This document shows, one piece after another, positions 1-20,869 of a stretch of DNA of 64,000 bases (within the stretch, counting starts at the first letter, position 1; each line of letters begins with the position of its first letter). The translations under genes and the position numbers were made by a program. The notes under the pieces were generated by a model. The model saw nothing but the letters and a program-made list of their open reading frames with translations. It searched no databases and was not told the DNA's origin. This DNA is from Staphylococcus capitis subsp. capitis (GTDB lineage Bacteria > Bacillota > Bacilli > Staphylococcales > Staphylococcaceae), in the NCBI RefSeq assembly GCF_040739495.1, contig NZ_CP145263.1:2108001-2172000 (forward strand), read 5' to 3'.

Positions 1-536
1 ACACGATATACAGTTGACCTACTTACGCCAGTAGCTTCGGCTATTTGTTCACCGGTCATTTTTTGTTCATCATATAGGAACTTAATTTCTCTTTTTTTAT
101 GATCAGGCATGGGTGGACGTCCACCGACGCGCCCTCTCGCTCTTGCAGAAGCAAGCCCCTTTTTAGTACGTTCGCTTAAAAGATTGGCTTCGAGTTCAGC
201 AAAAGCACTCATCATCGTAAAAAACATTTTACCCATTGCATCTTTTGTATTGATATTCATATCAATAATTTGTAATTCAATATTATTATTTTCTAACCAT
301 TGAGCTAATTCTATTAATTGTTTCGTTGTTCGACCTAAGCGATCAAGTTTATAAACAACTAATGTATCTTCTTCACGTAAATATTCTAGACATTTGTCTA
401 ACTCTGATCGTTTTATTTTTCGCCCACTCACTTTTTCTTTAAATATTTTTGAACAGCCAAAGTTTTTTAAAATATCGATTTGGCTATCTAAACTTTGATC
501 TTGTGTTGAAACACGAGCATAACCAATTTTAGCCAT
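1..536 (-). CDS. Serine recombinase (resolvase/invertase family), C-terminus cut by window edge
   Basis: The reading frame runs from an ATG at 536 off the left edge, giving at least 178 residues. The product is a site-specific DNA recombinase that resolves or inverts DNA at res-type sites. The catalytic signature is complete: GYARVSTQDQ near residue 5 carries the nucleophilic serine, and KLDRLGR near residue 65 carries the active-site arginines. A GRVGGRPP linker leads to a helix-turn-helix (TGEQIAEATGVSRSTVYR). The start codon lies only four bases from the left repeat of the arsenic transposon, so the resolvase's own upstream promoter and res site have been displaced. It probably belongs to an older plasmid or transposon backbone rather than to the arsenic element. 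Confidence 0.9.
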   Translation of the reverse strand, partial: MAKIGYARVSTQDQSLDSQIDILKNFGCSKIFKEKVSGRKIKRSELDKCLEYLREEDTLVVYKLDRLGRTTKQLIELAQWLENNNIELQIIDMNINTKDAMGKMFFTMMSAFAELEANLLSERTKKGLASARARGRVGGRPPMPDHKKREIKFLYDEQKMTGEQIAEATGVSRSTVYR

Positions 537-540
537 TTGT

Positions 541-586
541 TGTCAGTTTTGGAGTTATATGGCACAATTTTGTTTTTTAAATGGCA
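541..586 (+). repeat. Left terminal inverted repeat of the arsenic transposon
   Basis: Reading inward it begins TGTCAGTTTTGGAGTTATAT and ends AAATGGCA. It matches the reverse complement of 11850-11896 apart from a few substitutions and one gap. The length and TGTCA start fit Tn552-family ends. Confidence 0.88.
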
Positions 587-619
587 AAACACCCCTTATT
601 TAGTTAATAAGAGGTGTTT
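587..619. terminator. Hairpin terminator of the ars operon
   Basis: The arms AAACACCCCTTATT and AATAAGAGGTGTTT are separated by a short loop and sit five bases after the arsC stop, just inside the left transposon repeat. Confidence 0.75.
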
Positions 620-623
620 ATTA

Positions 624-1019
624 TTATCTCAATTTAAACTTTTCTATAGCTAATTTAATCTCGTCTCTAACACGTTGAAATTCTGACCATTCTTTACCTG
701 CTGGATCTTCAAAACCCCAATGCTCTTTTTTAACGTTTGGTGGTAAAATAGGACAATTATCGTCTGCATCACTACATAACGTTACGACCAAATCTGATTG
801 TTTTAAAATATCATTATCAATCAAGTCTGACGTATGGTTTGATATATCAATATCTACTTCTTTCATAGCTTCTATTGCTTTAGGATTAACACCATGCGTT
901 TCAATACCAGCTGAATAGACATTCCAGTCTTCACCCAATATTTCCTTTCCCCAACCTTCAGCCATTTGGCTACGACAAGAGTTACCAGTACATATAAAAT
1001 AAATTATTTTCTTTGTCAT
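624..1019 (-). CDS. arsC: Arsenate reductase ArsC, thioredoxin-coupled
   Basis: This cytoplasmic enzyme of 131 residues reduces arsenate to arsenite, which is then exported. It is the low-molecular-weight phosphatase type known from plasmid pI258. The P-loop CTGNSCRS carries the first two active cysteines, and LCSDADDNC carries the redox pair that shuttles the disulfide to thioredoxin. I chose the ATG at 1019 because the GAGGTG ribosome site then has normal spacing; ATG 1022 and GTG 1028 lie too close. It is the last gene of the minus-strand arsenic operon, 16 bases after arsB, followed by a hairpin. Length equals the family norm and nothing looks damaged. Confidence 0.96.
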
Positions 1020-1035
1020 CATTGGCACCTCTTTT

Positions 1036-2638
<1,603 letters not shown>

Positions 2639-2642
<4 letters not shown>

Positions 2643-4303
2643 TTTTTCTTCTTCCTTTCTACTTGGAACCTTTTATAACGTTGATAATTTTTATTACCAC
2701 CTGACAAATTAAACACTTGTTTAAAACCTAAATTAATAAGTACGTTTTGTGCAGCATTCCCAGTAGTACCTTTATTACAATAAGTCACTATCTTTTGATT
2801 TTTATCTAATGTTTTTGCATAACTTCTCAACATTTTCAATGGGACGTTAATCGCTCCATCAACATGATTAACTTCAAATTGCTTTGGAGAACGTACATCT
2901 AAAATCAATAAATCATTATTTTGTTTTATGACTTCTTCAGGCGTTATAATTTTGCGTCCTCGAGTAATATTGTGTCCAATCATCCCTGTATAAATAACAG
3001 GATCTTTAGTTGTAGAAAAAGGAGGCGCATATGCTAAATCTAAATGAAATAAATCTTCTGCATTGGCACCAAACGTTATAGCAGTAGCTAGTACATCTAT
3101 TCTCTTATCTACACCTTCATACCCAATAATTTGGGCGCCCAGTAATTTAGAATTGTTTTTATCAAATATAGCTTTAATTACCATTTCTTGACCTTGCCTA
3201 TATTTTGGACGGTTCGGTTTCACATTGTGTAATACGTCAATATCAATATCTAAATCAATAGTTTCTTTTTCAGTTAAGCCAGTTTGGGCAATTGTCATAT
3301 CAAATATACGAACAATGCCTGTTCCTAAAATCCCTTTATGCTCTAGATTTCCACCAGTTAATCGATCTCCTAAAATACGTCCCATTTTATTTGCTGTAGA
3401 ACCTAGCGGTCTATATATAGGGTTCCCGGTAATTAAATTATAACTTTCTGCTACGTCACCAATTGCATATATATGAGGAATATTTGTTTCCAAATACTTA
3501 TTGGTTTGTATTGCTCCAGATTCTCCAATATTAATACCAATTTCTTTAGCTAATTTAGTATTTGGTGTCACACCAATCCCAATAATGATTAAATCTGTAT
3601 CAATTAATTCGCCAGTTTTTAAGCTCACTCTATTTATCGTATGATTCTCATCATAATCAATAATATCTATTTCATTATAGGTATATACGTTAGCTTTATC
3701 TTCAATATATTCTTGAATCATAAAACTCATATCGTGGTCTAAATGAGGCATAAAAGTACTGCGTTGAACAATTGAAGTGTTGTAATTAGATAATTGCTCT
3801 AACATCTCTAAACCAATAAATCCACCACCAATGATTGTTATATTCTGAACATCATTGCCTTCAATATAATTATAAATTGCTTTCGCATCATTAATGTTCT
3901 TAACTTTAAACACATTTTTATATTCTTCGCTATTTAGTTGAGGAAGTTCTTTAGGCGATGAACCTGTTGCTAATACTAATTCATCATATTCTTGAATCAT
4001 CGTTTTATCATTTACTAAATTGGTAACTGTTATTGTTTGATCAGTATCATTTATCTTATTTACTTCATATTCTGTATAAATATCTATATTAAAGCGCTCT
4101 TTAAACCATTTAGCATTTCGTGGCGTGAGTTCATCAATATCAGATACATTGCCGCCTATATAGTAGGGAATACCACATACGGAATACGAAATATCACTAT
4201 CTTTATCAAAAACGGTAATTTCAACATTTTCACTATTTCTTCTTGCTTTAGCCGCGACACTCGTACCGGCAGCAACTGAACCAATGATTACAATTTTTTT
4301 AAT
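2639..4303 (-). CDS. CoA-disulfide reductase fused to rhodanese (CoADR-RHD type), non-ATG start
   Basis: If read from the end of arsA the frame encodes about 554 residues, the usual length of the CoADR-RHD fusion. The N-terminus KKIVIIGSVAAGTSVAAKAR is the FAD-binding loop, followed by the redox cysteine in SYSVCGIPYY, an NAD(P) site (ITIIGGGFIGLEM) and YAIGDVAE. The last roughly 100 residues are a rhodanese domain with active loop CNKGTTG. The family reduces CoA disulfides, polysulfides or mixed thiols with NAD(P)H. The open frame contains no ATG, GTG or TTG before ATG 4000, which lies inside the protein; the best start is ATT at 4303-4301, overlapping the arsA stop and preceded by a run of six G. 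It overlaps arsR by four bases. A role in thiol repair during arsenic stress is inferred. Confidence 0.85.
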
Positions 4304-6030
4304 TATGATAACCCCCCATAAGGTATGACAAAATAATTATCAAGACTTTCATTTTTAATCTTGTTTATCCAAATTGATTCATCTTCTTTTTTGTTACTAA
4401 AAAGGTCATCACTTTGATTTAGCGTAACCAACGATTGATTAACCACCCACCAATTATGGCCTATATTAGCTCTATTTAAATCTTCTACTAAACGTTTAGA
4501 TTCTAAATAAGGTGTTTTTTCTGCTAGTGTTACGATTATCATCTGTGTTAAATTTTTATTTTGAATTTTAGGTAATAATGTTTCAACATTACTGGTAGTT
4601 TGAGTTGATTTTTTCTTTAATTCTTTATGATGATTTTCACTAGAATCAAGTAACAGCAAGGTATGGCCTGTAGGAGCTGTATCTACAATTACGTAATCCA
4701 TGTCTTCTTGATTCTCCATAATGTCACTAAAGGCTTTGAAAAATGCTATTTCTTCTGTACAAGGTGATTTTAAATCTTCCATAATATAATTAATATCGTC
4801 TTGTGGTGTGTCATCACTCACTGTGGCTAGTACTTCTTTTTTATACTTTTCTAATGCTTGTTCTTCATCAATATAAGTAGTATTTAAATTACTTGTGGTT
4901 TCAACATTAATTTCTTTAGTAGGATCAGTAGTTGCTAAAAGAACACGATATTCTTTATTAGATAATGCTGTAGCTAATTGCGTTGCTACTGTCGTTTTAC
5001 CAACGCCACCTTTTCCCATTGTAAATAAATATTGAACTTTACTATTTTCAATTTCATCTATTAATTTATTGAATTGCGGATGATCTTCAACAATAAAGTC
5101 ATCATTTTCAATTAAGTTATTATCATTTAATAGGTTAGTTAAACTTTCTATACCTTCTTCTTTCTGCTTTTTATATGGAACATAATAAGCATGATTGTTA
5201 TTTAACCATTCAGTAAAATGATTAATGTTTTTATCTTGTTCTAATTTCATCTGACTCGAAATTAAACCGTGACTTTCTTCTATATAATTGTTAATGATTA
5301 CTTTGAATTTAGAAATTGACAGTTGTTGTAATTCTCGTTGCGCTCTTTGAATTTCATATATAGAAGAGTGGCTAGGTCTAGCAATTAACATCATTGTCGT
5401 ATCTTTAGGATTACGTAATTTTTCCAATGCTAAGTTATACTTATCTCTATTTTCATCCAATCCTGATAATTGCCCTAGGCAAGAAGCGTCATTACTCGTT
5501 GTATTTAAATAATTTGTCCATGCAGAAGGTAATTCAAGCATTCTCAAGGTGTGACCTGTTGGAGCTGTATCAAATATAATGAAATCAAATTCTTGTTCTA
5601 AAGTTTTATCGGATAAAAAATTTGTAAATTCATTAAATGCTGCTACTTCAACTGTACACGAACCACTTAACTGTTCTTTCATCTCAGAAAGCACATCTTC
5701 TGGTAGAATACCCTCATAAGGTTCTATAGATTGTGCTTTATAATCGTCTGCAGCAACAATCGGGTCAAAATTGGCTATAGAGAGATTAGGCATAGGTTGA
5801 TATTTAGTTAATTTATTAGATAATTCCATTTGAAATACATCTTGTAAATTACTAGCTGGATCAGTACTTACTAAAGCTACTTTCTTTCCATTATCTGCTA
5901 AGTTTAAAGCAATAAAACTTGATATCGTCGTTTTGCCTACGCCACCTTTACCAGTAAAAAACAAATATTTTGTTAACTCAATGTTATCTAAATTCAATTT
6001 ATTTAAGTATTTAACAGCATCCATCTCCAT
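4303..6030 (-). CDS. arsA: Arsenical pump-driving ATPase ArsA
   Basis: This peripheral ATPase of about 575 residues binds ArsB at the membrane and energises arsenite export. It is an internal duplication: each half has a deviant Walker A (GKGGVGKTT near residues 28 and 340) and the signal-transduction motif DTAPTGHT. Cysteines expected to bind arsenite are visible in GSCTVEVAAF, DASCLGQL and SPCTEEIAFF. I prefer ATG 6030, because GGAGG at about 6043-6039 then has normal spacing; ATG 6045 has no site and ATG 6024 is also possible. It overlaps arsD by about 20 bases, so the two are coupled. Length is typical of the family. Confidence 0.95.
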   Translation of the reverse strand: MEMDAVKYLNKLNLDNIELTKYLFFTGKGGVGKTTISSFIALNLADNGKKVALVSTDPASNLQDVFQMELSNKLTKYQPMPNLSIANFDPIVAADDYKAQSIEPYEGILPEDVLSEMKEQLSGSCTVEVAAFNEFTNFLSDKTLEQEFDFIIFDTAPTGHTLRMLELPSAWTNYLNTTSNDASCLGQLSGLDENRDKYNLALEKLRNPKDTTMMLIARPSHSSIYEIQRAQRELQQLSISKFKVIINNYIEESHGLISSQMKLEQDKNINHFTEWLNNNHAYYVPYKKQKEEGIESLTNLLNDNNLIENDDFIVEDHPQFNKLIDEIENSKVQYLFTMGKGGVGKTTVATQLATALSNKEYRVLLATTDPTKEINVETTSNLNTTYIDEEQALEKYKKEVLATVSDDTPQDDINYIMEDLKSPCTEEIAFFKAFSDIMENQEDMDYVIVDTAPTGHTLLLLDSSENHHKELKKKSTQTTSNVETLLPKIQNKNLTQMIIVTLAEKTPYLESKRLVEDLNRANIGHNWWVVNQSLVTLNQSDDLFSNKKEDESIWINKIKNESLDNYFVIPYGGLS

Positions 6031-6358
6031 CACAGCATCCTCCATTTCTCATTTGATTAACCGTAATAATTTCATCGGCTTCTTCTTGGGTAATATAAGC
6101 GCCCGTTTTAGCTATATTTCCTTCTATAAAAGTGATTGGTAAAACTTCATTACCTTTTTCTTGAATCAAACGAATAGCTTCTTTATTTTTAATAAATTCA
6201 TTTGGATTATTACTCATATTATAACGTCGAACTTCTATTTGATTTTGTTTTAAATATTCATTTATTTGATTCACCTTTATAAGTGTTTCATCTGGTTCTG
6301 GACCACATACTCCAGTAGAACAACACATGGCCTCTTCGTATATTTCAATATTTAACAT
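6011..6358 (-). CDS. arsD: Arsenic metallochaperone ArsD
   Basis: ArsD (115 residues) carries arsenite to ArsA and raises its affinity; it is also a weak repressor. The essential triad is present as MCCSTGVCGP near residues 12-18, and two further cysteine pairs end the protein (GGCCDGDGCC), as in the classic R773 protein. ATG 6358 follows a good GAGGTGAG site. It is first in the minus-strand operon arsD-arsA-reductase-arsR-arsB-arsC, just downstream of an AT-rich promoter region with symmetrical repeats. Confidence 0.95.
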   Translation of the reverse strand: MLNIEIYEEAMCCSTGVCGPEPDETLIKVNQINEYLKQNQIEVRRYNMSNNPNEFIKNKEAIRLIQEKGNEVLPITFIEGNIAKTGAYITQEEADEIITVNQMRNGGCCDGDGCC

Positions 6359-6379
6359 TATACTCACCTCATATATTTA

Positions 6380-6426
6380 TTTTACATACATAGATTAACA
6401 TCTATATAGATATATGTCTATATAAT
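6380..6426 (-). promoter_or_regulatory. Probable ars operon promoter and ArsR operator
   Basis: The 68-base gap between arsD and the resolvase stop holds AT-rich near-palindromic sequence, including ACATCTATATAGAT. On the minus strand TAGACA and TAATCT are separated by 17 bases and could be the -35 and -10 boxes. Overlap of symmetry and promoter is what an ArsR operator would look like; this is inference. Confidence 0.5.
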
Positions 6427-7026
6427 TTATTTGCTATTTTTAATTCTATATATAGTTTGGCGTGTAATACCTACTTCTTTAGCGATAGTACTGATAGATT
6501 TACCTTGTTCAAGTAATTCAATAACTCGGTAATAAACTAAACGTTTTTGTGGGTCTTTGGCATTTGGTGAGTAAAGTACAGGTCTGCCTTTATATATCCC
6601 TTTTTCTTTGGCTACTTTAATACCTTGAGCTTGTCTACGTTTACTTTCATTTTTTTCTTGTTCTGAAATCATTGCTAAAATTTGAATGATTAAATCTTTC
6701 ATAAACTTATCAAACAGTGGATTTCCAATCACTTCATTCATCATAGGTAAACTCGTTATCATTAATTGAACTTCTTTATCTTTTAAATAATTAACTGTTT
6801 GAATTATTTCATCATAATTTCTTCCTAGTCTATCAATAGATTCGATAATCAAACGATCTCCCATTCTTAAAAAATTTAATACTTCTTGAAAAATAGGTCT
6901 GTTTTCTATAGATTTACCTGATTGTTTTTCTGTAAAAATTTTCTCAGCACCAAAAGAATACAAATTTTCAATTTGCCTATCTAAATTTTGATCAATGGTC
7001 GAAACTCTTGCATATCCAACTATCAT
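6427..7026 (-). CDS. Serine resolvase of the arsenic transposon
   Basis: This 199-residue recombinase should resolve the cointegrates formed when the transposon moves. The catalytic serine lies in [11 protein letters not shown], the arginines in SIDRLGRN, and the C-terminus carries a helix-turn-helix ([20 protein letters not shown]). ATG 7026 follows an AAAGGGTG site and is preferred to GTG 7035. Its upstream region contains repeated ACCCTAAT elements likely to be res. It lies between the two oppositely oriented arsenic units and looks fully functional, unlike the resolvase-like gene at 11247. Confidence 0.9.
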
Positions 7027-7044
7027 TTTTAACACCCTTTCTCA

Positions 7045-7118
7045 TACACCCTAATCATACAAATAGAAACAGCATTTTACAAAGGATTTTTATTGTTCGA
7101 TTAGGGTACACCCTAAAT
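7045..7118. promoter_or_regulatory. Candidate res site for the transposon resolvase
   Basis: TACACCCTAATC at 7045-7056 is repeated in inverted form as GATTAGGGTACA at 7099-7110, where it is part of the palindrome TTAGGGTACACCCTAA (7101-7116). Inverted binding sites directly upstream of a resolvase gene are the usual form of res and also serve autoregulation. Confidence 0.6.
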
Positions 7119-7165
7119 AACAGAATTTAGTAACTTGCAAAAGTTGCAATAATAATTTATATTCA

Positions 7166-7189
7166 ATACATCAAAAAAAGTTGATGTAT
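7166..7189. promoter_or_regulatory. Operator of the second ArsR-type regulator (first copy)
   Basis: ATACATCAA and TTGATGTAT form a perfect 9-base inverted repeat around six bases. The core ATCAA-N6-TTGAT recurs twice before the permease gene at 7857. It lies about 33 bases before the 66-residue gene, in the promoter region of the unit. Confidence 0.75.
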
Positions 7190-7221
7190 CATTTTAGTAT
7201 TTTATAAAGGAGTTCGATTTT

Positions 7222-7422
7222 ATGAGAATAAATCATGCAGGTACATTATCTGTTGATTATTTTGTTAGTTACTTAAATCTAATTATGATATCAAGAGAAG
7301 TTTCTTTAAAAGAAGCTATATCATATATGAAAAATGAGTTCTTTAAAGGAGAACCTGACATGTATGGTAAAATAACAGAAACTCATTTTAATCAAGCAAT
7401 ACAAGAACTTAAACAAAAATAG
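7222..7422 (+). CDS. Small protein of unknown function (66 aa) leading the arsP unit
   Basis: I do not recognise this protein. It is 66 residues, mixed hydrophobic and charged, with a hydrophobic stretch in VDYFVSYLNLIMIS, no cysteines and no clear membrane span. ATG 7222 follows an AAAGGAGT site at normal spacing. It is the first gene of a plus-strand unit, preceded by a palindromic operator and followed 24 bases later by an ArsR-family regulator, so it is presumably arsenic-induced. Its lack of cysteines argues against direct metal binding. Confidence 0.65.
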   Translation: MRINHAGTLSVDYFVSYLNLIMISREVSLKEAISYMKNEFFKGEPDMYGKITETHFNQAIQELKQK

Positions 7423-7446
7423 AAGTATATAAGAGGTGATTATTAA

Positions 7447-7767
7447 ATGGAAATTATTAAATCTAGTCCTAATAGAACTGAGGAAGAACAATTAGACTTC
7501 TATGAACAGATTTTTAATGCGCTCGCTGATAAAATTAGACTTAAAATTCTACATTCAATACGTCAAAGCGATTCAAAATCTTTATGCGTTTGTGATTTAG
7601 AAGAATTATTAGAGCTAAAACAATCTAAACTTTCCTATCATTTGAAAAAATTAGTAGATGCAAATATTCTTATTGCCGAAAAGCATGGCACATGGAATTA
7701 TTATAAAATTAATGAGCAACAAATACAGGTGGTTTTAAATGAAGATACTTGTTGCAAGATACTTTAA
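7447..7767 (+). CDS. ArsR/SmtB-family repressor of the permease unit
   Basis: This 106-residue winged-helix regulator differs clearly from the ArsR at 2328. CVCDLEELLELKQSKLSYHLKKL is the sensor and recognition-helix region, with a CxC pair in SLCVCDLE, and a further vicinal cysteine pair ends the protein (EDTCCKIL). Paired and C-terminal cysteines are seen in regulators that sense trivalent organoarsenicals, so this one may respond to methylated or aromatic arsenicals; that is inference. ATG 7447 follows AAGAGGTG. The stop overlaps a terminator hairpin. Identical palindromes before the unit and before the permease are its likely operators. Confidence 0.88.
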   Translation: MEIIKSSPNRTEEEQLDFYEQIFNALADKIRLKILHSIRQSDSKSLCVCDLEELLELKQSKLSYHLKKLVDANILIAEKHGTWNYYKINEQQIQVVLNEDTCCKIL

Positions 7768-7780
7768 GTATCTTCTTTTT
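7756..7780 (+). terminator. Terminator overlapping the end of the regulator gene
   Basis: AAGATACTT and AAGTATCTT pair almost directly, followed by CTTTTT. It separates the regulator from the permease, which has its own operator and probably its own promoter. Confidence 0.65.
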
Positions 7781-7789
7781 ACTATAGAA

Positions 7790-7833
7790 TTAATCAACTT
7801 TTTTTGATTAATATATCAAAAAAAGTTGATTAA
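7790..7833. promoter_or_regulatory. Double ArsR-type operator before the permease
   Basis: A perfect inverted repeat with 19-base arms and a 6-base spacer (left arm TTAATCAACTTTTTTTGAT). Each arm is itself a copy of the ATCAA-N6-TTGAT palindrome found at 7166-7189, so two regulator dimers could bind side by side. Confidence 0.78.
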
Positions 7834-7856
7834 ACAAATTCGGAGGCGTTATACTG

Positions 7857-8741
7857 ATGTTAGATTCAATTATGGAATTCATAAAAACATTTTCGATGTT
7901 GTTTTTTGAATTATTACTACTATTTATAGTAGTGAGTTTTATTGTAAGTCTGATTCAACAAGTAGTTTCAGAAGAAAAAATTAAAAAACTTTTAAGTAAA
8001 CCTAATAAGTCTATTAATTATATATTAGGTATGATATTTGGTGCTATTACACCATTTTGTTCTTGTTCAACTATTCCAATACTTGCAGGTCTATTAAATT
8101 CCAAAGTTCCTTTTGGTCCAGCGATGAGTTTTTTAATTGCTTCACCATTAATGAACCCATTAATGGTATTTATGTTATGGGTTTTATTAGGATGGAAGGT
8201 TGCTATTGTTTATTTTGTAGTACTAGCAATTTTTAGTATTTTAACAGGTTTAGTATTTTCAAAAATGAATTTAGCTAACACTTATAAAGGAGTTAATGTT
8301 AAAGGAGACGGATTTTTTGCTAATAAAACAAGGTCTCGTTTTAAACAAGCATTAAACGATGCGTGGGCATTTTTATACCCAATGTTACCTTATCTATTTA
8401 TTGGTGTGTTTATTGGCGCATTTATATATGGATTCATACCGGAAGCATTTATAACTAAGTATGCAAGTGGCGATGGTTTCATGTCGGTCTTGATTGCTTC
8501 TGTTATCGGTATTCCTATGTATATTAGACCCGAAACAATGTTACCTATAGCTGAAGCATTAGTATCAAAAGGTATGTCACTAGGAACAGTTGTGGCGTTG
8601 ATCATTGGTGGCGCTGGCGCAAGTATCCCAGAAGTTGTATTACTATCTAAGTTATTCAAGAAAAAATTTGTAGTATCATTTGTTATCGCAATTTTAGTTG
8701 TAGCTATTGCTACTGGTTTAATTGTGAACATCATTATTTAA
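7857..8741 (+). CDS. arsP: ArsP-type permease, probable organoarsenical exporter
   Basis: This 294-residue membrane protein belongs to the DUF318/permease family that includes ArsP. It has about eight hydrophobic spans and the family motif TPFCSCSTIPILAGLL, with paired cysteines, followed by PFGPAMSFLIASPLMNP. ArsP proteins export trivalent organoarsenicals such as methylarsenite; other family members handle other solutes, so the substrate is inferred from context. It sits behind a double operator matching the neighbouring ArsR-type gene and is followed 14 bases later by a Cys-rich peptide gene. It complements arsB, which handles inorganic arsenite. Confidence 0.85.
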   Translation: MLDSIMEFIKTFSMLFFELLLLFIVVSFIVSLIQQVVSEEKIKKLLSKPNKSINYILGMIFGAITPFCSCSTIPILAGLLNSKVPFGPAMSFLIASPLMNPLMVFMLWVLLGWKVAIVYFVVLAIFSILTGLVFSKMNLANTYKGVNVKGDGFFANKTRSRFKQALNDAWAFLYPMLPYLFIGVFIGAFIYGFIPEAFITKYASGDGFMSVLIASVIGIPMYIRPETMLPIAEALVSKGMSLGTVVALIIGGAGASIPEVVLLSKLFKKKFVVSFVIAILVVAIATGLIVNIII

Positions 8742-8755
8742 AGGAGGTGAGGTAA

Positions 8756-8890
8756 ATGGGTATTAAAGACGCATTAAAAAAATTAAAACCTCAAGAACAG
8801 TCATGTTGTTCGGTAGAAATTGAAGAAAATCAAGAAAACAAAGAAGAAAAGACAAATAAAGATCAACAGAATAATAAAGGTTGTTGTTAA
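8756..8890 (+). CDS. Cys-rich small protein (44 aa) behind arsP
   Basis: A short frame starts at ATG 8756 with an excellent AAAGGAGGTGAG site just after arsP. The 44 residues begin MGIKDALKKLKPQEQSCCSV, continue with a highly charged Glu/Lys/Asn stretch, and end KGCC. The two vicinal cysteine pairs at either end could chelate trivalent arsenic, as in ArsD. I know of no named family. Coupling to a permease suggests a chaperone or scavenger that delivers the metalloid, which is inference. Confidence 0.7.
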   Translation: MGIKDALKKLKPQEQSCCSVEIEENQENKEEKTNKDQQNNKGCC

Positions 8891-9006
8891 TCCCGTATCA
8901 TTAACAATTAAATTAAGGAGCATAAAAGTATGCTTTCTTTTTTTAATGGAGGTGCTGAAATGATTAAAATTTAGCTGACTTTACCGAAGAAGAACGTCAA
9001 AAAGCT

Positions 9007-10398
9007 ATGGAAAGGTATCATATACTTGAACCTTATTTTAAAAAATTAAAATCAGTAAGAGCAGTTAGTGAATCAGCAAAAGTACCGAATCGCACACTTT
9101 ATAATTGGATTAGTAGATACCAAAATGATGGATTAGCAGGTCTTATAGATAAAACGAGAAAAGACAAAAATCGTATAAAGATAGATGAAGGTACTATCAA
9201 ATTTGTTCAGAATGAGTATTTTAGTAACAGAGGAATTTCTATAGCTTCTATACACCGTAAAACAAAACAGTGGTGTAACAATAATACGCTCTCTGAACCT
9301 AGCTATTATCAAGTTTATAATATTATTAAGCGAATACCTGAAAATTTAAAAGCTTATTCAAATATGAATTCAAAAAATTATGCTGAAAAATACGATGGTA
9401 TTTACACACGTGAGTGCGAACGCCCTAATGAAATTTGGCAAGCTGACCATACCATGTTAGACATAGAAGTATTAAATGAAAAGAATGAAATTGAAAGACC
9501 ATGGCTAACAATCGTTTTAGATGATTATAGCAGAGCAATTGCAGGTTTTAGAATAGAGTTTGGAACACCAGATACCGAGAGAACAGCACTTGTTCTAAGG
9601 CAAGCAATATGGAAAAAGGGAAATTCAAATTGGCCAATTTGTGGGATACCAGAAAAATTCTATACTGACCACGGCAAAGACTATACCTCAGAACATATGC
9701 AACAAGTGTCAGCTAATCTCAAAATAGAACTGATATATTCCAAAATAGGTATACCAAAAGGCAGAGGAAAAATAGAACGTTTTTTTCAAACAGTTAATTT
9801 AATGTTTCTTGAATTACTCCCTGGTTATACCAAAAATAAAAAATCAAGAAAACATCTTACTTTGGAAGACCTTAATCATAAGTTTGAACACTTTATATTA
9901 AATGAGTATCATTATCGTCAACATGGAACAACAAAAGAAAAACCAATACAAAAATGGAATCAACCAGACTTTCTCCCCCAATTACCTGAATCGAGAGAAT
10001 TATTAGATTTACTACTATTAACTACAACTAAACCTAGAAAAATACACAAAGATGGTATTTATTTTAAAGGGTTAAGATATTTCTCCACTAATCTCATTGC
10101 TTATATAACAGAAGAAGTTTTTATAAGATATGATCCTCAAGATATTTCAGAAATTCGAGTTTATTTAAATAATCAATTTTTAAGTATTGCGTATTGCAGT
10201 GACTTAGAAAACCAAAGTATAAGTATAAAAGAAATCGAAAGACTAAGAGCAAATAAGAAAAGAGAATTAGGAAAAAGTATTACTCGGACACGTCACCTCG
10301 TTCAAAATCTCAATCACACTAAAACATCAAATGAAGAATTAAGTAATAACGCTAAACAAGTTAAAAAGTCAAAACTAAAGAGGTATAAAAATGACTAA
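9007..10398 (+). CDS. tnpA: DDE transposase (Tn552 p480/TniA type), start region frameshifted
   Basis: The 463 residues form an N-terminal helix-turn-helix region followed by an rve-type integrase core. Catalytic residues are visible in IWQADHTMLD, FYTDHGKDY and KGRGKIERFFQ (D, D, E). The family product is nearer 480 residues. The best ribosome site (GGAGGTG) serves ATG 8960, but that frame stops after four codons; the transposase frame continues upstream as LADFTEEERQKA without a start. One extra A in the AAAA run at 8966-8969 would join them. As it stands translation must begin at ATG 9007, with a weak site. It overlaps the ATPase gene by eight bases. Confidence 0.9.
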   Translation: MERYHILEPYFKKLKSVRAVSESAKVPNRTLYNWISRYQNDGLAGLIDKTRKDKNRIKIDEGTIKFVQNEYFSNRGISIASIHRKTKQWCNNNTLSEPSYYQVYNIIKRIPENLKAYSNMNSKNYAEKYDGIYTRECERPNEIWQADHTMLDIEVLNEKNEIERPWLTIVLDDYSRAIAGFRIEFGTPDTERTALVLRQAIWKKGNSNWPICGIPEKFYTDHGKDYTSEHMQQVSANLKIELIYSKIGIPKGRGKIERFFQTVNLMFLELLPGYTKNKKSRKHLTLEDLNHKFEHFILNEYHYRQHGTTKEKPIQKWNQPDFLPQLPESRELLDLLLLTTTKPRKIHKDGIYFKGLRYFSTNLIAYITEEVFIRYDPQDISEIRVYLNNQFLSIAYCSDLENQSISIKEIERLRANKKRELGKSITRTRHLVQNLNHTKTSNEELSNNAKQVKKSKLKRYKND

Positions 10399-11227
10399 TA
10401 AAATTTTTGTTGAAACGAAACAATATCGTCGATTTGAAGAATTTTGTGATAATTGCGCTAAATATAAATACATGGGAGTTTGTTACGGAAATCCTGGTGT
10501 AGGTAAAACATTTTCTGCACAATATTATGCAAATTGGGACTATGTAAACCCAATCATTACTGAATTTCAAAAAGCTGATGATAAAGGAAGTAATGTACAC
10601 GATGATCAATTTTTAAATTGTAAAACGATTTTTTATACAGCACCTCCAGTTAGATCTTCAAGAATTTATAAAGAACTATTGAACCTAGCTAGTGAATTAA
10701 CATTAGGAAAAATTGGGTATCGATCATTGAAAAAGCAAGAGGAGTTTAATGGATTAGAAGAACTTGTAAGATTGCAACCAAGGAATTATGAAATTGATTT
10801 AATTATCATTGATGAAGTTGATAGGTTAAATTATAAAACATTGGAAATTATTAGAGATATTTATGATCAACTTGATATTGGTGTTGTATTAATCGGTATG
10901 CCGGGCATAGAGAAACGATTATCAAGGTATCCTCAATTATATTCTCGCATTGGTTTCAGTCATCAATTTGAAAAATTAAGTAACGATGAATTAAAACACG
11001 TTTTAGAATATAGATGGAATGAACTTTCATTACCTTTAAGTTATGAGGATTTTGAAGATTATGAATCCATTAATACAGTAATAAAAATTACCAATGGTAA
11101 TTTCAGATTAGTACAAAGGTTATTTTCTCAAATTATACGAATTATGGAAATTAACGAATTGAATAAAATAAATGTTGAAGTGATAGAAACTGCGCGAGAT
11201 GGTTTACTAATAGGAGAAAATGAGTAA
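10391..11227 (+). CDS. tnpB: Transposition ATPase (Tn552 p271/TniB type)
   Basis: This 278-residue AAA ATPase partners the DDE transposase, probably activating it and helping choose the target. Walker A is YGNPGVGKTFSAQYY near residue 35 and Walker B is LIIIDEVDRL near residue 138, followed by sensor-like segments (GMPGIEKRLSRYPQLYSRIGF). The start overlaps the end of tnpA, so the two are coupled, and the resolvase-like gene follows after about 20 bases. The size matches the Tn552 protein and no damage is visible. Confidence 0.92.
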   Translation: MTNKIFVETKQYRRFEEFCDNCAKYKYMGVCYGNPGVGKTFSAQYYANWDYVNPIITEFQKADDKGSNVHDDQFLNCKTIFYTAPPVRSSRIYKELLNLASELTLGKIGYRSLKKQEEFNGLEELVRLQPRNYEIDLIIIDEVDRLNYKTLEIIRDIYDQLDIGVVLIGMPGIEKRLSRYPQLYSRIGFSHQFEKLSNDELKHVLEYRWNELSLPLSYEDFEDYESINTVIKITNGNFRLVQRLFSQIIRIMEINELNKINVEVIETARDGLLIGENE

Positions 11228-11246
11228 TTTGAAAGGGCTGTAGTAT

Positions 11247-11807
11247 ATGAGAAAAATAGGATATGCACGTGTACCTTATACTGATCAAAATTTAGATAAC
11301 GAGATAACTCATTTATTAATCAATGGATGTGATTTAGTTTTTTCTGAAAAAGTAAATGTTTATAGTAAAGAACAAATAGAACTTAAAAATTGCTTAGAAG
11401 AATTAAAAGAGAATGACATTTTAGTTATAACTGATTTAAAAGCTTTAGGCTTAACGCCTAAACAGTTTATAAACTTCCTAGACCACGAAATAATATCGAA
11501 AAACTTCCATTTAGAAGTACTTAACTTGGATATAAATACTCAAAATGAATATGGGCAATACTTTATTAGAATATTCAAAATGCTACTAGAATCCGAAAAA
11601 GTTCTAGTACAAGAGAGAACATCAAATGGTTTAAATGCTGCTCGAGAAAAAGGTCGAAAAGGAGGACGGCCTCAAAAAATTGAAAAAAGCCAAAAGCAAA
11701 ATATTAAACAACTATATGATAGTGATAAATATACAGGTGAAGAAATTGCTCAAATGACGGGATTAAGTAGGACTTCAATTTATAGAATAATTAGAGAAAC
11801 GTTATAA
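11247..11807 (+). CDS. Degenerate serine recombinase lacking catalytic residues
   Basis: The 186 residues align along their length with the resolvase at 1-536, including the linker (GRKGGRPQ) and the helix-turn-helix (TGEEIAQMTGLSRTSIYR). The chemistry is missing, however: the family ARVS motif reads GYARVPYTDQN, with proline for the nucleophilic serine, and the DRLGR motif reads DLKALGLT, without its arginines. It therefore should bind DNA but not cut it. The frame is full length and the C-terminal domain well kept, which argues against simple decay. It follows the ATPase by about 20 bases in the transposition operon. A regulatory or target-choosing role is my inference. Confidence 0.88.
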   Translation: MRKIGYARVPYTDQNLDNEITHLLINGCDLVFSEKVNVYSKEQIELKNCLEELKENDILVITDLKALGLTPKQFINFLDHEIISKNFHLEVLNLDINTQNEYGQYFIRIFKMLLESEKVLVQERTSNGLNAAREKGRKGGRPQKIEKSQKQNIKQLYDSDKYTGEEIAQMTGLSRTSIYRIIRETL

Positions 11808-11810
11808 AAC

Positions 11811-11849
11811 AAAGCAGGTAGACAATCATATAACTGTTTACCTGCTTTG
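11811..11849 (+). terminator. Terminator of the transposition operon
   Basis: AAAGCAGGTA and TACCTGCTTT form a 10-base stem directly after the recombinase-like gene and immediately before the right terminal repeat. Confidence 0.75.
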
Positions 11850-11896
11850 TGCCATTTAAAGAACAAAATTAATGCCATATAACTCCAAAAATGACA
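11850..11896 (-). repeat. Right terminal inverted repeat of the arsenic transposon
   Basis: Read inward on the minus strand it begins TGTCATTTTTGGAGTTATAT, matching the left end at 541-586. It ends at 11896, 25 bases from the adaptor pseudogene. Confidence 0.88.
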
Positions 11897-11920: not shown

Positions 11921-12322
11921 CTACCTATCTGTTTCAAAAACGTTCGTTATTGGTTTGTTTGTATTTTTATAGTCTTCATAAACTTCTCTTTGGCTTTCCT
12001 TTATCTTATCTACAAGGCGGGGTCTAATATTATGATTTGTATCATAATATATTAAAGGTGTTCCTTTTTTAACATTTTCTTTTTTCTTAACTTGAGGATT
12101 TATGTATGCACCTACATTTTTGTTTTCTTTATAAGTTTTTACAGGATCTGGATAAACTCACCTTGTCAATTTCAAAGGTTTTGTTTTTTCGACCTTATAA
12201 CTTTGGTATCCTTTATCTTGTTTTTCTCCTTTAGTATGAACTTAAGCATATACAAAATAAATTACTAAACAAGATAAAAATATAATTACAAGGACAAAAG
12301 TCCACATCTGTCTTTTGGTCAT
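11921..12322 (-). pseudogene. Broken HlyD/MacA-like membrane adaptor gene
   Basis: From ATG 12322 the translation begins MTKRQMWTFVLVIIFLSCLV, then meets two in-frame stops, and reads on as KKGTPLIYYDTN, RPRLVDKIKES and so on to a stop at 11923. The match is to the first 130 or so residues of the intact adaptor at 21008-22015, which has the same KKGTPLIYYDTN segment. The barrel and C-terminal parts are missing. Like the intact copy it lies downstream of a GH5 gene, so it is the remnant of a second GH5-adaptor pair, probably cut short near where the transposon ends. Confidence 0.8.
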
Positions 12323-12421: not shown

Positions 12422-13678
12422 TTATTTACTAGCTGCTTTAAGCGCATTAAATACAATATCATTATATTTTGTATTTTCTTTTTCTCCAAATTTGTCAGAC
12501 TTCTCGTCAACATTTAAACCTTTATAATGAATAGGAGACCAATTACCTCTTTCTTGAGTATCATAATTCCATAATGTCCATGACATATCAGCATCTTTCA
12601 TTTTATCAAAAATATGTCTATAATCTTCTTCATTAGGTTCTACATTCTCATCTCCAGATACACTTGTACCATTAAATTCTCCCATGTAATTAGGCACATT
12701 ATAGTTAGCTTTTTTAATTCCATCTACTTTATTATCAAAACTTTCTCTAATACCTTGATGGCTTCTACCTTGGTCTTCAGTTGGATAGTTATGATATTCA
12801 TATACAACATTATTTTCATCCCATTTTTTGCCTTTTTTAGGATATTCACTTGGATTAGGCATATTTATTGGATCCCATGTTGCCTCTAAAAATGCAATGT
12901 GGTTATCTCCATTTTTTCTAATTGTATCAATTGTTTCCTTGTAGAATTTAGCAATTTGTTTTTTTACATTTCCATCATGTATTTTGCCTTTAGGTTCATT
13001 TAAAATATCATATCCTGCTACACCTGGATTATTTTTATATTTTTCAGAAATATGCCACCAAATTTCTTTGGCTTTTCCTTGTAGATTTGGGTCCTCCCAA
13101 AGGTCACCATTCTCAGCATTAGCATGTGTATCTCCTGAATGCTCTTGATTATTTTGAGAACCCGGTGCACCATGCATATCAATTATGACGTATAGACCGT
13201 GATCATTTGCTTTATTAATAAATCTATCAACTTCTTTAAAAGCATCGTTACGCACTTTTACATCTTTAGGATTCATACCTTTTTTATAGTTTGTTAAATT
13301 AATATAATTTAAAGGTAAACGAATTGTATTCCCCCCCATATCTTTTACATTTTGAAAATCTTTATCTTTCCATCGATTTTGTGCAAATTTATCCAAAAGA
13401 TCTCGGGTTTCCTTTGGACTATGACCTTCATCTTGAATTTTGTTAAATAAGTCTTTATAATCACTTGCTCCTTTGTTATCACTTAAACCTCCCATCCAAC
13501 TTTCAGTTGTAAATACATTACCTGCATTAACACCTTTAATTTTAAAATCTTTTCCATCTTTTTGGATTTCTTTACCTTTCGTTTGAAGCTGACTCATATC
13601 TTCGGCATGTGCTGAATGTGATATTAATGTAGTTAAAGCTGTTGCAGCTAAGACTGAACTAAACAGTATTTTTTTCAT
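12422..13678 (-). CDS. Secreted GH5 family glucanase/cellulase-like hydrolase (copy 1)
   Basis: About 418 residues with a Sec signal peptide (start MKKILFSSVLAATALTTLIS, cleavage after SAHA). The catalytic domain is glycoside hydrolase family 5: GYDILNEPKG carries the acid/base glutamate and NYMGEFNGTS the nucleophile, with NTIRLPLNYIN and YVIIDMHGAPGSQN as typical barrel strands. Family members cleave beta-1,4 or beta-1,3 glucans; the exact substrate is not clear from sequence. ATG 13678 has a good AGGTGAGG site, while GTG 13687 lies within that site. It is a diverged paralogue of 19607-20869 and lies 25 bases downstream of the chitosanase, probably in one transcript. Confidence 0.88.
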   Translation of the reverse strand: MKKILFSSVLAATALTTLISHSAHAEDMSQLQTKGKEIQKDGKDFKIKGVNAGNVFTTESWMGGLSDNKGASDYKDLFNKIQDEGHSPKETRDLLDKFAQNRWKDKDFQNVKDMGGNTIRLPLNYINLTNYKKGMNPKDVKVRNDAFKEVDRFINKANDHGLYVIIDMHGAPGSQNNQEHSGDTHANAENGDLWEDPNLQGKAKEIWWHISEKYKNNPGVAGYDILNEPKGKIHDGNVKKQIAKFYKETIDTIRKNGDNHIAFLEATWDPINMPNPSEYPKKGKKWDENNVVYEYHNYPTEDQGRSHQGIRESFDNKVDGIKKANYNVPNYMGEFNGTSVSGDENVEPNEEDYRHIFDKMKDADMSWTLWNYDTQERGNWSPIHYKGLNVDEKSDKFGEKENTKYNDIVFNALKAASK

Positions 13679-13703
13679 ATGCCTCACCTTTACTTTTTAA
13701 ATT

Positions 13704-19606: not shown

Positions 19607-20869
19607 ATGAAGAAATCTATAATTAGTTCTGTACTTGTAGCAAGTACTTTATTATCAAGCATTCCAGCTTTAAATTCAGGACATGTTGCTCATGCTGATA
19701 GTATGAGCCCATTAACTACAAAGGGTAAAGAAATACAAAAAGATGGCCATAATTATCGATTGAAAGGTGTAAATGCAGGCAATGTATTTACTACTGAACA
19801 ATGGTTAGGTGGTTTGGGAAGTGCTAAACATAAAGATTATAAATCAATTAACGATGAGATGGATGGTAAGTATGGAGCTAAAAAAACACATCAATTACTA
19901 GATAAATATACTGAAAATCGTTGGGAAGATAAAGATTTTAAAAATTTGAAAGATATGGGAATGAATACGATTCGTTTACCCATTAACTATATTAATTTAA
20001 CAAATTACAAAGCAGGTATGGCTCCTAAAGACTTGAAGATGAGAAAAGAGCCATTCAAAGCAATGGATAAATTTATTGATAAAGCTAATAGTCATGGACT
20101 GTATGTTATTATCGACATGCATGGTGTACCAGGTTCTCAGAATGGACAAGAACATTCTGCAGAAGCTAACGGTTCTATAGGTAATTTTTGGAAAGACCCA
20201 GATGCTCAGGGTAAAGCCAAAGAAATTTGGTATCAAATTGCTCAGCACTATAAAAATAACAATGGTGTAGCTGGATACGATTTACTTAATGAGCCTAAAG
20301 CTCCTGCCCAACACGTTGATGAGGAAGTCAAAGAGTTTTATAAAGGAGCTTTGAAGTCTATTAGAGACACTGGAGATAAACATATTGCTTTCTTAGAGGC
20401 TTGGTATCCTCAGGATTTAAAAGATCCTCAAGAATTCAATGATCCTACTAATAATATTGTCTATGAGTATCATAAATATCCTTACAATAAGGAAACGACT
20501 TCTCATAAAGGAATACAAGATACATTTGACCGTGAACTTGAAACTTTAAATGACAAAGCTAGTCACTATAATGTACCTACTTATTTAGGCGAATTTAATG
20601 CTCACTATGCAGGAAGTCCTGGTCCTGAAGGTAAAAATCCTGTAAATCCTAATAAAAACGACTTTGACCATATATTTAAAAGTTTCAAAAATAAAGAAAA
20701 TTCTAAGATAAGTTGGACACTATGGAATTACGATATTGAAAATAATCAATCTTGGGGACCAATCAACTTTAAAGGTATTAATGTCGATGAAAATTCTAAT
20801 GATTTTGGTAAAAAAGAAGGCGCCTATATAAATCATGATGTTTATGATACCATTAAAAATAATCAATAG
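19607..20869 (+). CDS. Secreted GH5 family glucanase/cellulase-like hydrolase (copy 2)
   Basis: The 420 residues carry a signal peptide (MKKSIISSVLVASTLLSSIP, cleavage after VAHA) and a GH5 domain. GYDLLNEPKA holds the acid/base glutamate and TYLGEFNAHY the nucleophile; NTIRLPINYIN and YVIIDMHGVPGSQN are shared with copy 1. By eye the two proteins are around 60 percent identical, so they are an old duplication. AAAGGAG precedes ATG 19607. A hairpin follows at 20940 and then an adaptor gene, repeating the gene order of the first copy. Confidence 0.88.
   Translation: MKKSIISSVLVASTLLSSIPALNSGHVAHADSMSPLTTKGKEIQKDGHNYRLKGVNAGNVFTTEQWLGGLGSAKHKDYKSINDEMDGKYGAKKTHQLLDKYTENRWEDKDFKNLKDMGMNTIRLPINYINLTNYKAGMAPKDLKMRKEPFKAMDKFIDKANSHGLYVIIDMHGVPGSQNGQEHSAEANGSIGNFWKDPDAQGKAKEIWYQIAQHYKNNNGVAGYDLLNEPKAPAQHVDEEVKEFYKGALKSIRDTGDKHIAFLEAWYPQDLKDPQEFNDPTNNIVYEYHKYPYNKETTSHKGIQDTFDRELETLNDKASHYNVPTYLGEFNAHYAGSPGPEGKNPVNPNKNDFDHIFKSFKNKENSKISWTLWNYDIENNQSWGPINFKGINVDENSNDFGKKEGAYINHDVYDTIKNNQ

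Follow-up and report, generated by a model that had tools for sequence, protein, structure and literature searches.

A serine resolvase without active site as third gene of a Tn552-like transposition operon, with a possible role in target choice

Why should a transposon keep, directly behind its two transposition genes, a serine resolvase that has lost its active site, and could such a protein take part in the choice of the insertion target? The question is raised by a Tn552-like element in a stretch of 64,000 nucleotides from Staphylococcus capitis subsp. capitis, referred to here as the window, to which all coordinates without a locus label belong. The finding bears on how Tn552- and Tn5053-type elements recognise a res site occupied by resolvase. 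If it binds DNA, a naturally occurring dead resolvase in a tniA/tniB operon would uncouple binding from catalysis. Such a protein would open the way to asking which surface of a resolvase is read by the transposition ATPase and whether targeting can be self-supplied. Such elements ride staphylococcal plasmids, whose res regions gather resistance cargo.

The element and its third transposition gene

The element spans positions 541-11896 and is bordered on both sides by inverted repeats of the type TGTCA(G/T)TTTTGGAGTTATATGGCA. The left terminal repeat (541..587, plus strand, beginning with TGTCAGTTTTGGAGTTATATGGCA) and the right one (11849..11896, minus strand) match an inverted-repeat profile, which includes these copies themselves, with 1.6e-11 and 2.6e-13, respectively. 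An arsenic-resistance cargo block on the minus strand (624..6367) comprises ORFs that by their sequences presumably resemble ArsC, ArsB, ArsR, ArsA and ArsD, and a presumed oxidoreductase-like ORF. The active resolvase of the element follows at 6427..7035 (minus strand); it contains the serine and the DRLGR motif and is an ortholog of Sin (phmmer against PDB 2r0q, 1.6e-108), and it is the intact resolvase that a first-pass annotation had reported elsewhere in the element. Further cargo on the plus strand (7222..8741) consists of a small ORF without Pfam match, an ArsR-family regulator and an ArsP permease (Pfam HTH_5 and ArsP_1).

The transposition operon, on the plus strand, has a core of Tn552 type according to Pfam, with an rve/Mu-C transposase followed by an AAA ATPase. 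The gene tniA (9007..10398; rve and Mu-transpos_C) encodes a TniA-like DDE transposase and tniB (10391..11227; AAA_22 1.8e-18, TniB 2e-6) a TniB-like AAA ATPase. The dead serine resolvase, recognised by Pfam and by comparison of conserved columns, is encoded at 11247..11807 (plus strand); its gene starts 19 bp past the tniB stop and is preceded by an AAAGGG stretch. A hairpin immediately 3' of it (11808..11850, plus strand; inverted repeat I19 at 11809-11850) is likely the operon terminator. In this copy the frame of tniA is broken near the N terminus (8968-9007) in comparison to the sister copies, and the ORF restarts at 9007; tblastn aligns it from 8968 with the tniA of L005 at 97%, and the gene is intact in other copies. 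The earlier description of a third gene placed after both transposition genes in one unit thus holds for the order, although one member of the unit is interrupted here.

Outside the element, 4 bp from its left end, lies the gene of a plasmid-type resolvase with serine (3..536, minus strand). It belongs to the plasmid resolvases of about 184 aa that we label pRes, runs off the window, is complete in L043 and shows 43% identity to the dead protein. On the other side, the centre of the palindrome AAACGTTCGTTA (11938..11949, plus strand) is found 47 bp outside the right end. Farther to the right, two related genes (12422-13687 and 19607-20869) encode secreted, presumably cellulase-like proteins.

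The ORF of the third gene is intact and encodes 186 aa, a full-length serine-resolvase homologue matching Pfam Resolvase (PF00239, 3.6e-18) and HTH_7 (2.3e-6; 28.1 bits at a cut-off of 23.8); the Pfam scan found no TniQ domain in this protein. We compared 10 distinct dead proteins at 36 columns whose invariance among 34 distinct active resolvases reaches at least 90%, a set from which pRes_L010, pRes_L047, res2_L017, res_L015t and L056 were left out. Twenty columns are kept in all ten (G5, Y6, A7, R8, V9, Q14, L16, L23, G27, D57, L67, G68, E115, R124, G128, A132, G136, G140, R141 and P142), eleven are changed in all ten (S10, T11, I31, S37, G38, R43, G56, D65, R66, R69 and L82), and the remaining five are changed in some. 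The nucleophilic serine is replaced by Pro or Ala throughout, and the Arg/Asp cluster of R43, D65, R66 and R69 is changed in every protein, with R8 and R124 remaining. Eight of the eleven universally changed columns, the nucleophile and seven others, are in or by the active site, where the positions, including the cluster, are assigned according to what is known of the resolvase family. The loss is thus coordinated, and the absence of both the nucleophile and the DRLGR arginines from an open frame, first noted for the single sequence, extends to all ten distinct proteins.

Sister copies, selection and ancestry

Thirteen copies of the element were compared, including the one in the window. The sisters are located on plasmids (L005, L006, L007, L008, L009, L010 and L011) and on chromosomes or contigs (L044/L054, L045/L053, L046/L055, L047 and L057); the set does not extend to H6 (NZ_CP054576) or to the majority of the 728 plasmid records in which TniB was matched. 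The order tniA, tniB, dead gene, right end occurs in 13/13 copies keeping the region. The dead frame is open in 12 of the 13, with L047 frameshifted, and the copies yield the 10 distinct proteins; in the truncated element L050 no dead gene was matched. By profile, terminal repeats were found at both ends in the window copy, L007, L008, L009, L010, L045 and L057, and at the right end only in L005, L006, L011, L044, L046 and L047. The complete element L057, a copy from Salinicoccus albus, carries a BinL-type resolvase together with a dead protein of the same kind, and none of its 7/7 listed proteins of at least 90 aa contains a TniQ domain.

The dead proteins fall into two clades, P with proline and A with alanine in place of the serine. 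Between the clades identity amounts to 60-61% for the dead protein versus 85-86% for TniB. Omega of the dead gene (Nei-Gojobori) ranges from 0.09 to 0.27 over the pairs given: 0.13-0.27 for the window copy against clade P rows, 0.09-0.10 within clade A and 0.22-0.24 across the clades, where synonymous divergence of about 1.2 is near saturation. For the window copy and L057, 18 nonsynonymous and 32 synonymous changes correspond to an omega of 0.13, with a Fisher value of 6e-11 that derives from approximate, hand-entered site counts. In comparison, omega is 0.035-0.066 for tniB (0.15 in one close pair), which is below that of the dead gene, and 0.10-0.26 for tniA; the dead gene of L047 and the interrupted tniA and tniB of L008 were omitted. 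By these estimates the dead gene is maintained about as strongly as tniA and less than tniB. The loss of its active site is old, and the gene has been retained under purifying selection.

Sisters with preserved serine or arginines, or relaxed selection, had been named as findings that would speak against a targeting role; instead, the residues are lost in 10/10 proteins under purifying selection. The accompanying expectation, that loss of the serine recurs with purifying selection on the HTH, came true for the recurrence and for the selection as such, but without any concentration of selection on the HTH. Similarly, the DNA-binding domain, initially regarded as well kept, is recognisable by its HTH_7 match, yet it is not the better-kept half: between the clades its identity is 55.7% compared to 61.8% for the N-terminal domain. 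A stronger constraint on the HTH than on the N-terminal domain is supported neither by omega nor by these identities.

In a tree of 56 resolvases, all 12 dead rows fall into a single clade (100/100), which a split (95/94) places with pRes and apart from Sin and BinL. The closest active kin are pRes proteins (WP_011304040, WP_001062591) with 43-46% identity in the best rows. These plasmid resolvases possess the active-site residues and are encoded by stand-alone plasmid genes, in contrast to the dead protein with its operon location. Sin (2r0q) belongs to the same superfamily and is not the nearest kin; identity is 28-34% and the C-terminal domain is different. An earlier designation of the target resolvase as Sin-like was dropped, as PDB sequence searches place Sin as the element's own resolvase. 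Dead and pRes proteins share on average 39-40% identity in the N-terminal domain and about 50% in the C-terminal one, compared to 78% and 64% among pRes proteins. In our reading, catalysis was lost on the stem and the N-terminal domain changed rapidly, the new form having been conserved since (62% between the clades). An exchange of the C-terminal domain with pRes was considered as well; the best C-terminal tree of the whole set splits the dead rows, yet their monophyly is still compatible with the data (p 0.06). The domain trees also omit dead2, L058, L060, L064 and L066, in addition to the exclusions made for the conserved columns.

Wider searches yielded 158 matches in phage records, all below 60% identity, and one distant relative in viral contigs, which has the serine and DRLAR. 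Among genome contigs, the other 10 loci scanned (L056, L058-L066) gave no tniA or tniB match, and the serine is kept in 8/10, with L056 and L065 lacking it. The protein of L065 (8001-8546, a Ralstonia record) is resolvase-like with both serine and arginine cluster changed and lies outside any matched tni operon. A second serine-less resolvase-like family, dead2 (WP_002458491 / WP_000873696), is encoded divergently from a SulP transporter gene (L009 8021-8563; L084 6001-6543; L085 6001-6543) and occurs in 104 plasmid records at an identity of at least 60%; it is possibly a repurposed regulator.

Landing sites and a palindrome near the ends

In six of the 13 copies, an end lies at a distance of 4 to about 260 bp from the start codon of a pRes gene. 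This is the right end in L005, L008, L009 and L047 and the left end in L010 and the window copy; at L010 and L047 the neighbouring pRes gene is broken. For L009, the uninterrupted site is present in plasmid pSSP1 and reveals an 8-bp duplication upstream of pRes. Target duplications of 6-8 bp were seen by eye in 5/7 copies with both ends (8 bp in L008, L009 and L045; 6 bp in L010 and L057; none in the window copy and L007), the one of L045 at a place where neither palindrome nor pRes was seen. The right flank of the window copy agrees in 42/50 bases with the region 180-229 bp upstream of pRes in host contig C1, a level reached by 4/600 random 50-mers of the window (median 24). Since the left end touches the pRes start and the right flank resembles the pRes upstream region, the DNA between the two seems to be gone at this locus. 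Judged from the flanks, the elements land at pRes regions.

In 8/13 copies the palindrome AAACGnnCGTTT, or the half of it that is conserved, lies 32-59 bp from an end. The centre of AAACGnnCGTTT (one mismatch allowed) is found outside the end at 33 bp in L010, 40 bp in L006 and L011, and 47 bp in the window copy, L047 and L057; the conserved half occurs at 41 bp in L008 and at 59 bp in L009. No palindrome was found at L005, L007, L044, L045 and L046. Across 20 ends with 2000 bp of flanking DNA in total, six matches (at most one mismatch) were counted, compared to 14 in 362,559 bp elsewhere; the P of 2.8e-10 overstates the case, because the motif was chosen from the same flanks and the copies share plasmid lineages, with background loci partly overlapping in addition.

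What the palindrome might be is suggested by two pRes loci, L086 and L087, chosen as a pair by pRes. From the pRes start to -200 their identity is 9-10/10 per 10-bp bin, and past the motif at -202 it is 0-8/10. Over seven sites, identity amounts to 93% on the pRes side versus 39% beyond the palindrome, a contrast biased by the selection of sites by their constant half. The centre of AAACGnnCGTTT therefore looks like site I, the crossover site, of pRes, because similarity breaks there as a site-specific crossover would leave it. An excerpt of PMC12217951 gives the interval from boxI to boxII as the main landing place of res hunters, and the copies on the gene side fit this description. With 6/13 copies near the pRes start and 8/13 near the palindrome or its half, the claim that such elements insert at res is corroborated, the palindrome counting as a putative part of res. 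The pRes plasmids are mosaic at the AAACGnnCGTTT centre also in L006, L008, L009, L010 and L047, as if the crossover were active between replicons. A different, perfect 32-bp palindrome, ATGGTACCATAAACG-GT-CGTTTATGGTACCAT with arms around two central bases, lies outside the right end of L011 (10354-10385).

The possibility that AAACGnnCGTTT serves as target exclusively for elements with the dead gene was rejected, as L026, L040 and the fosD element in L006, all dead-less, share the palindrome and end 37-39 bp from it. In a hand count of right ends, the palindrome or its half lies within 100 bp in 5/13 copies with the gene versus 3/~19 without, a difference that is not significant (p 0.15); for the latter, the count covers right ends only and leaves out L013 and L041 (unsure end) as well as L030, L031, L032, L035 and L036 (no end found). 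Because dead-less relatives end at the same palindrome and the same distance, the gene is dispensable for res targeting by the family at large. The res preference thus predates the dead gene or does without it. Second Tn552-like elements, near fosD or cfr, adjoin the dead-resolvase element in L006 (12645-17082) and L007 (11459-14580); in L006 the two elements flank the palindrome, whose centre is 40 and 39 bp from their ends.

Possible roles of the dead resolvase

A role as adaptor in target choice is, in our tentative opinion and with somewhat less than even confidence, the best explanation of the dead resolvase. One Tn552-like clade would have captured a pRes gene, lost the entire active site and kept the gene as third transposition gene. 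The protein would bind res-type DNA (AAACGnnCGTTT or flanking subsites) as a dimer via its resolvase-like C-terminal domain and present an inert N-terminal domain to TniB/TniA in place of the target's own resolvase. The adaptor idea is plausible, with DNA binding, contact to TniB/TniA and the effect on insertion as its inferred parts. In the Tn5053-type gene order, tniQ follows tniB, and a third gene after tniB is shared by Tn5053/Tn402 and the present operon. Possible, though doubtful, is the more specific reading that a copy of the target's resolvase was inactivated by the transposon and now serves it as its own homing factor, encoded in tniQ position. Placed at the res crossover site, this factor would call TniB/TniA to insert about 33-47 bp away and free the element from needing a target-bound resolvase. 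The family shows its preference without the gene as well. What is left is that the present clade carries its own inert form of the protein type marking its targets, encoded where tniQ would stand.

Alternatively, the protein could be a regulator that binds DNA to repress or time the transposition operon or the target pRes gene, without any part in target choice. We regard this as rather unlikely, even if an HTH-bearing resolvase fold without catalysis suits a repurposed repressor and the dead2 family, which in L084 and L085 stands by the SulP gene without tni genes in the stretch shown, makes repurposing conceivable. Inside six scanned elements (L011 partly), AAACGnnCGTTT with at most one mismatch was found only at 6097, in the ArsD-like ORF, and at 7430 of L045, and no convincing autoregulatory palindrome was seen among them; this weighs weakly against a regulator, as a repressor could use other sequences.

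A contribution to resolution, with the protein filling regulatory positions of site II type and helping Sin or the target pRes to resolve cointegrates, is clearly unlikely. It would agree with the regulatory role of Sin dimers at site II, cleavage occurring at site I (excerpt of PMC2428073), and with the replicative mode of Tn5053-type elements, which require resolution (excerpt of PMC7765201). However, the element's Sin is distant from the dead protein in sequence and C-terminal domain, and the dead protein does not track the resolvase of its element, because L057 combines the same kind with a BinL type. Very unlikely is a dominant-negative or occupancy factor that blocks the target pRes or rival elements at res after insertion: kinship to pRes may imply a common DNA specificity, but given the second elements adjoining in L006 and L007, rivals are not kept out. 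That a captured resolvase is merely decaying as a passenger is highly improbable and, in spite of the one frameshifted copy, largely refuted by the selection estimate, with 12/13 frames open in two clades at near-saturated synonymous divergence.

Among known transposons, Tn552 and Tn5053/Tn402 come closest to this clade. Tn552 (p480, p271, bin) shares with it the DDE transposase, the AAA ATPase, terminal inverted repeats, an own serine resolvase and insertion into plasmid res; the excerpt of PMC3276174 describes two genes for transposition, without a dead resolvase as third, in contrast to the three genes found here. According to the same excerpt, Tn552 duplications are 6 bp, with 10-bp repeats in some plasmids, compared to 6-8 bp in 5/7 two-ended copies here, and transposons, Tn552 among them, have hotspots at the res sites next to sin. 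Tn5053/Tn402 (TniABQ, TniR) have res-region insertion in common with the present elements and, according to the excerpt of PMC7765201, use the target-site resolvase together with TniABQ and duplicate 5 bp rather than 6-8 bp; here the third gene encodes a dead resolvase, and L057 is free of a TniQ domain. The excerpt of PMC8649781 mentions Tn552 in passing. No report of a dead resolvase in a Tn552-like operon was found in titles and abstract openings of the open-licence PMC matches listed, which is weak evidence of absence. A Tn552-type res hunter with a dead resolvase as third gene is a new form, the mechanism of which we infer.

Finally, Sin itself was observed inside transposons: the rows of L007, L008-L011, L044 and L045 are 88-96% identical to the copy at 6427-7035, in L009 in two pieces. 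This transposon-borne location differs from the excerpt of PMC3276174, which denies sin any association with a transposable element.
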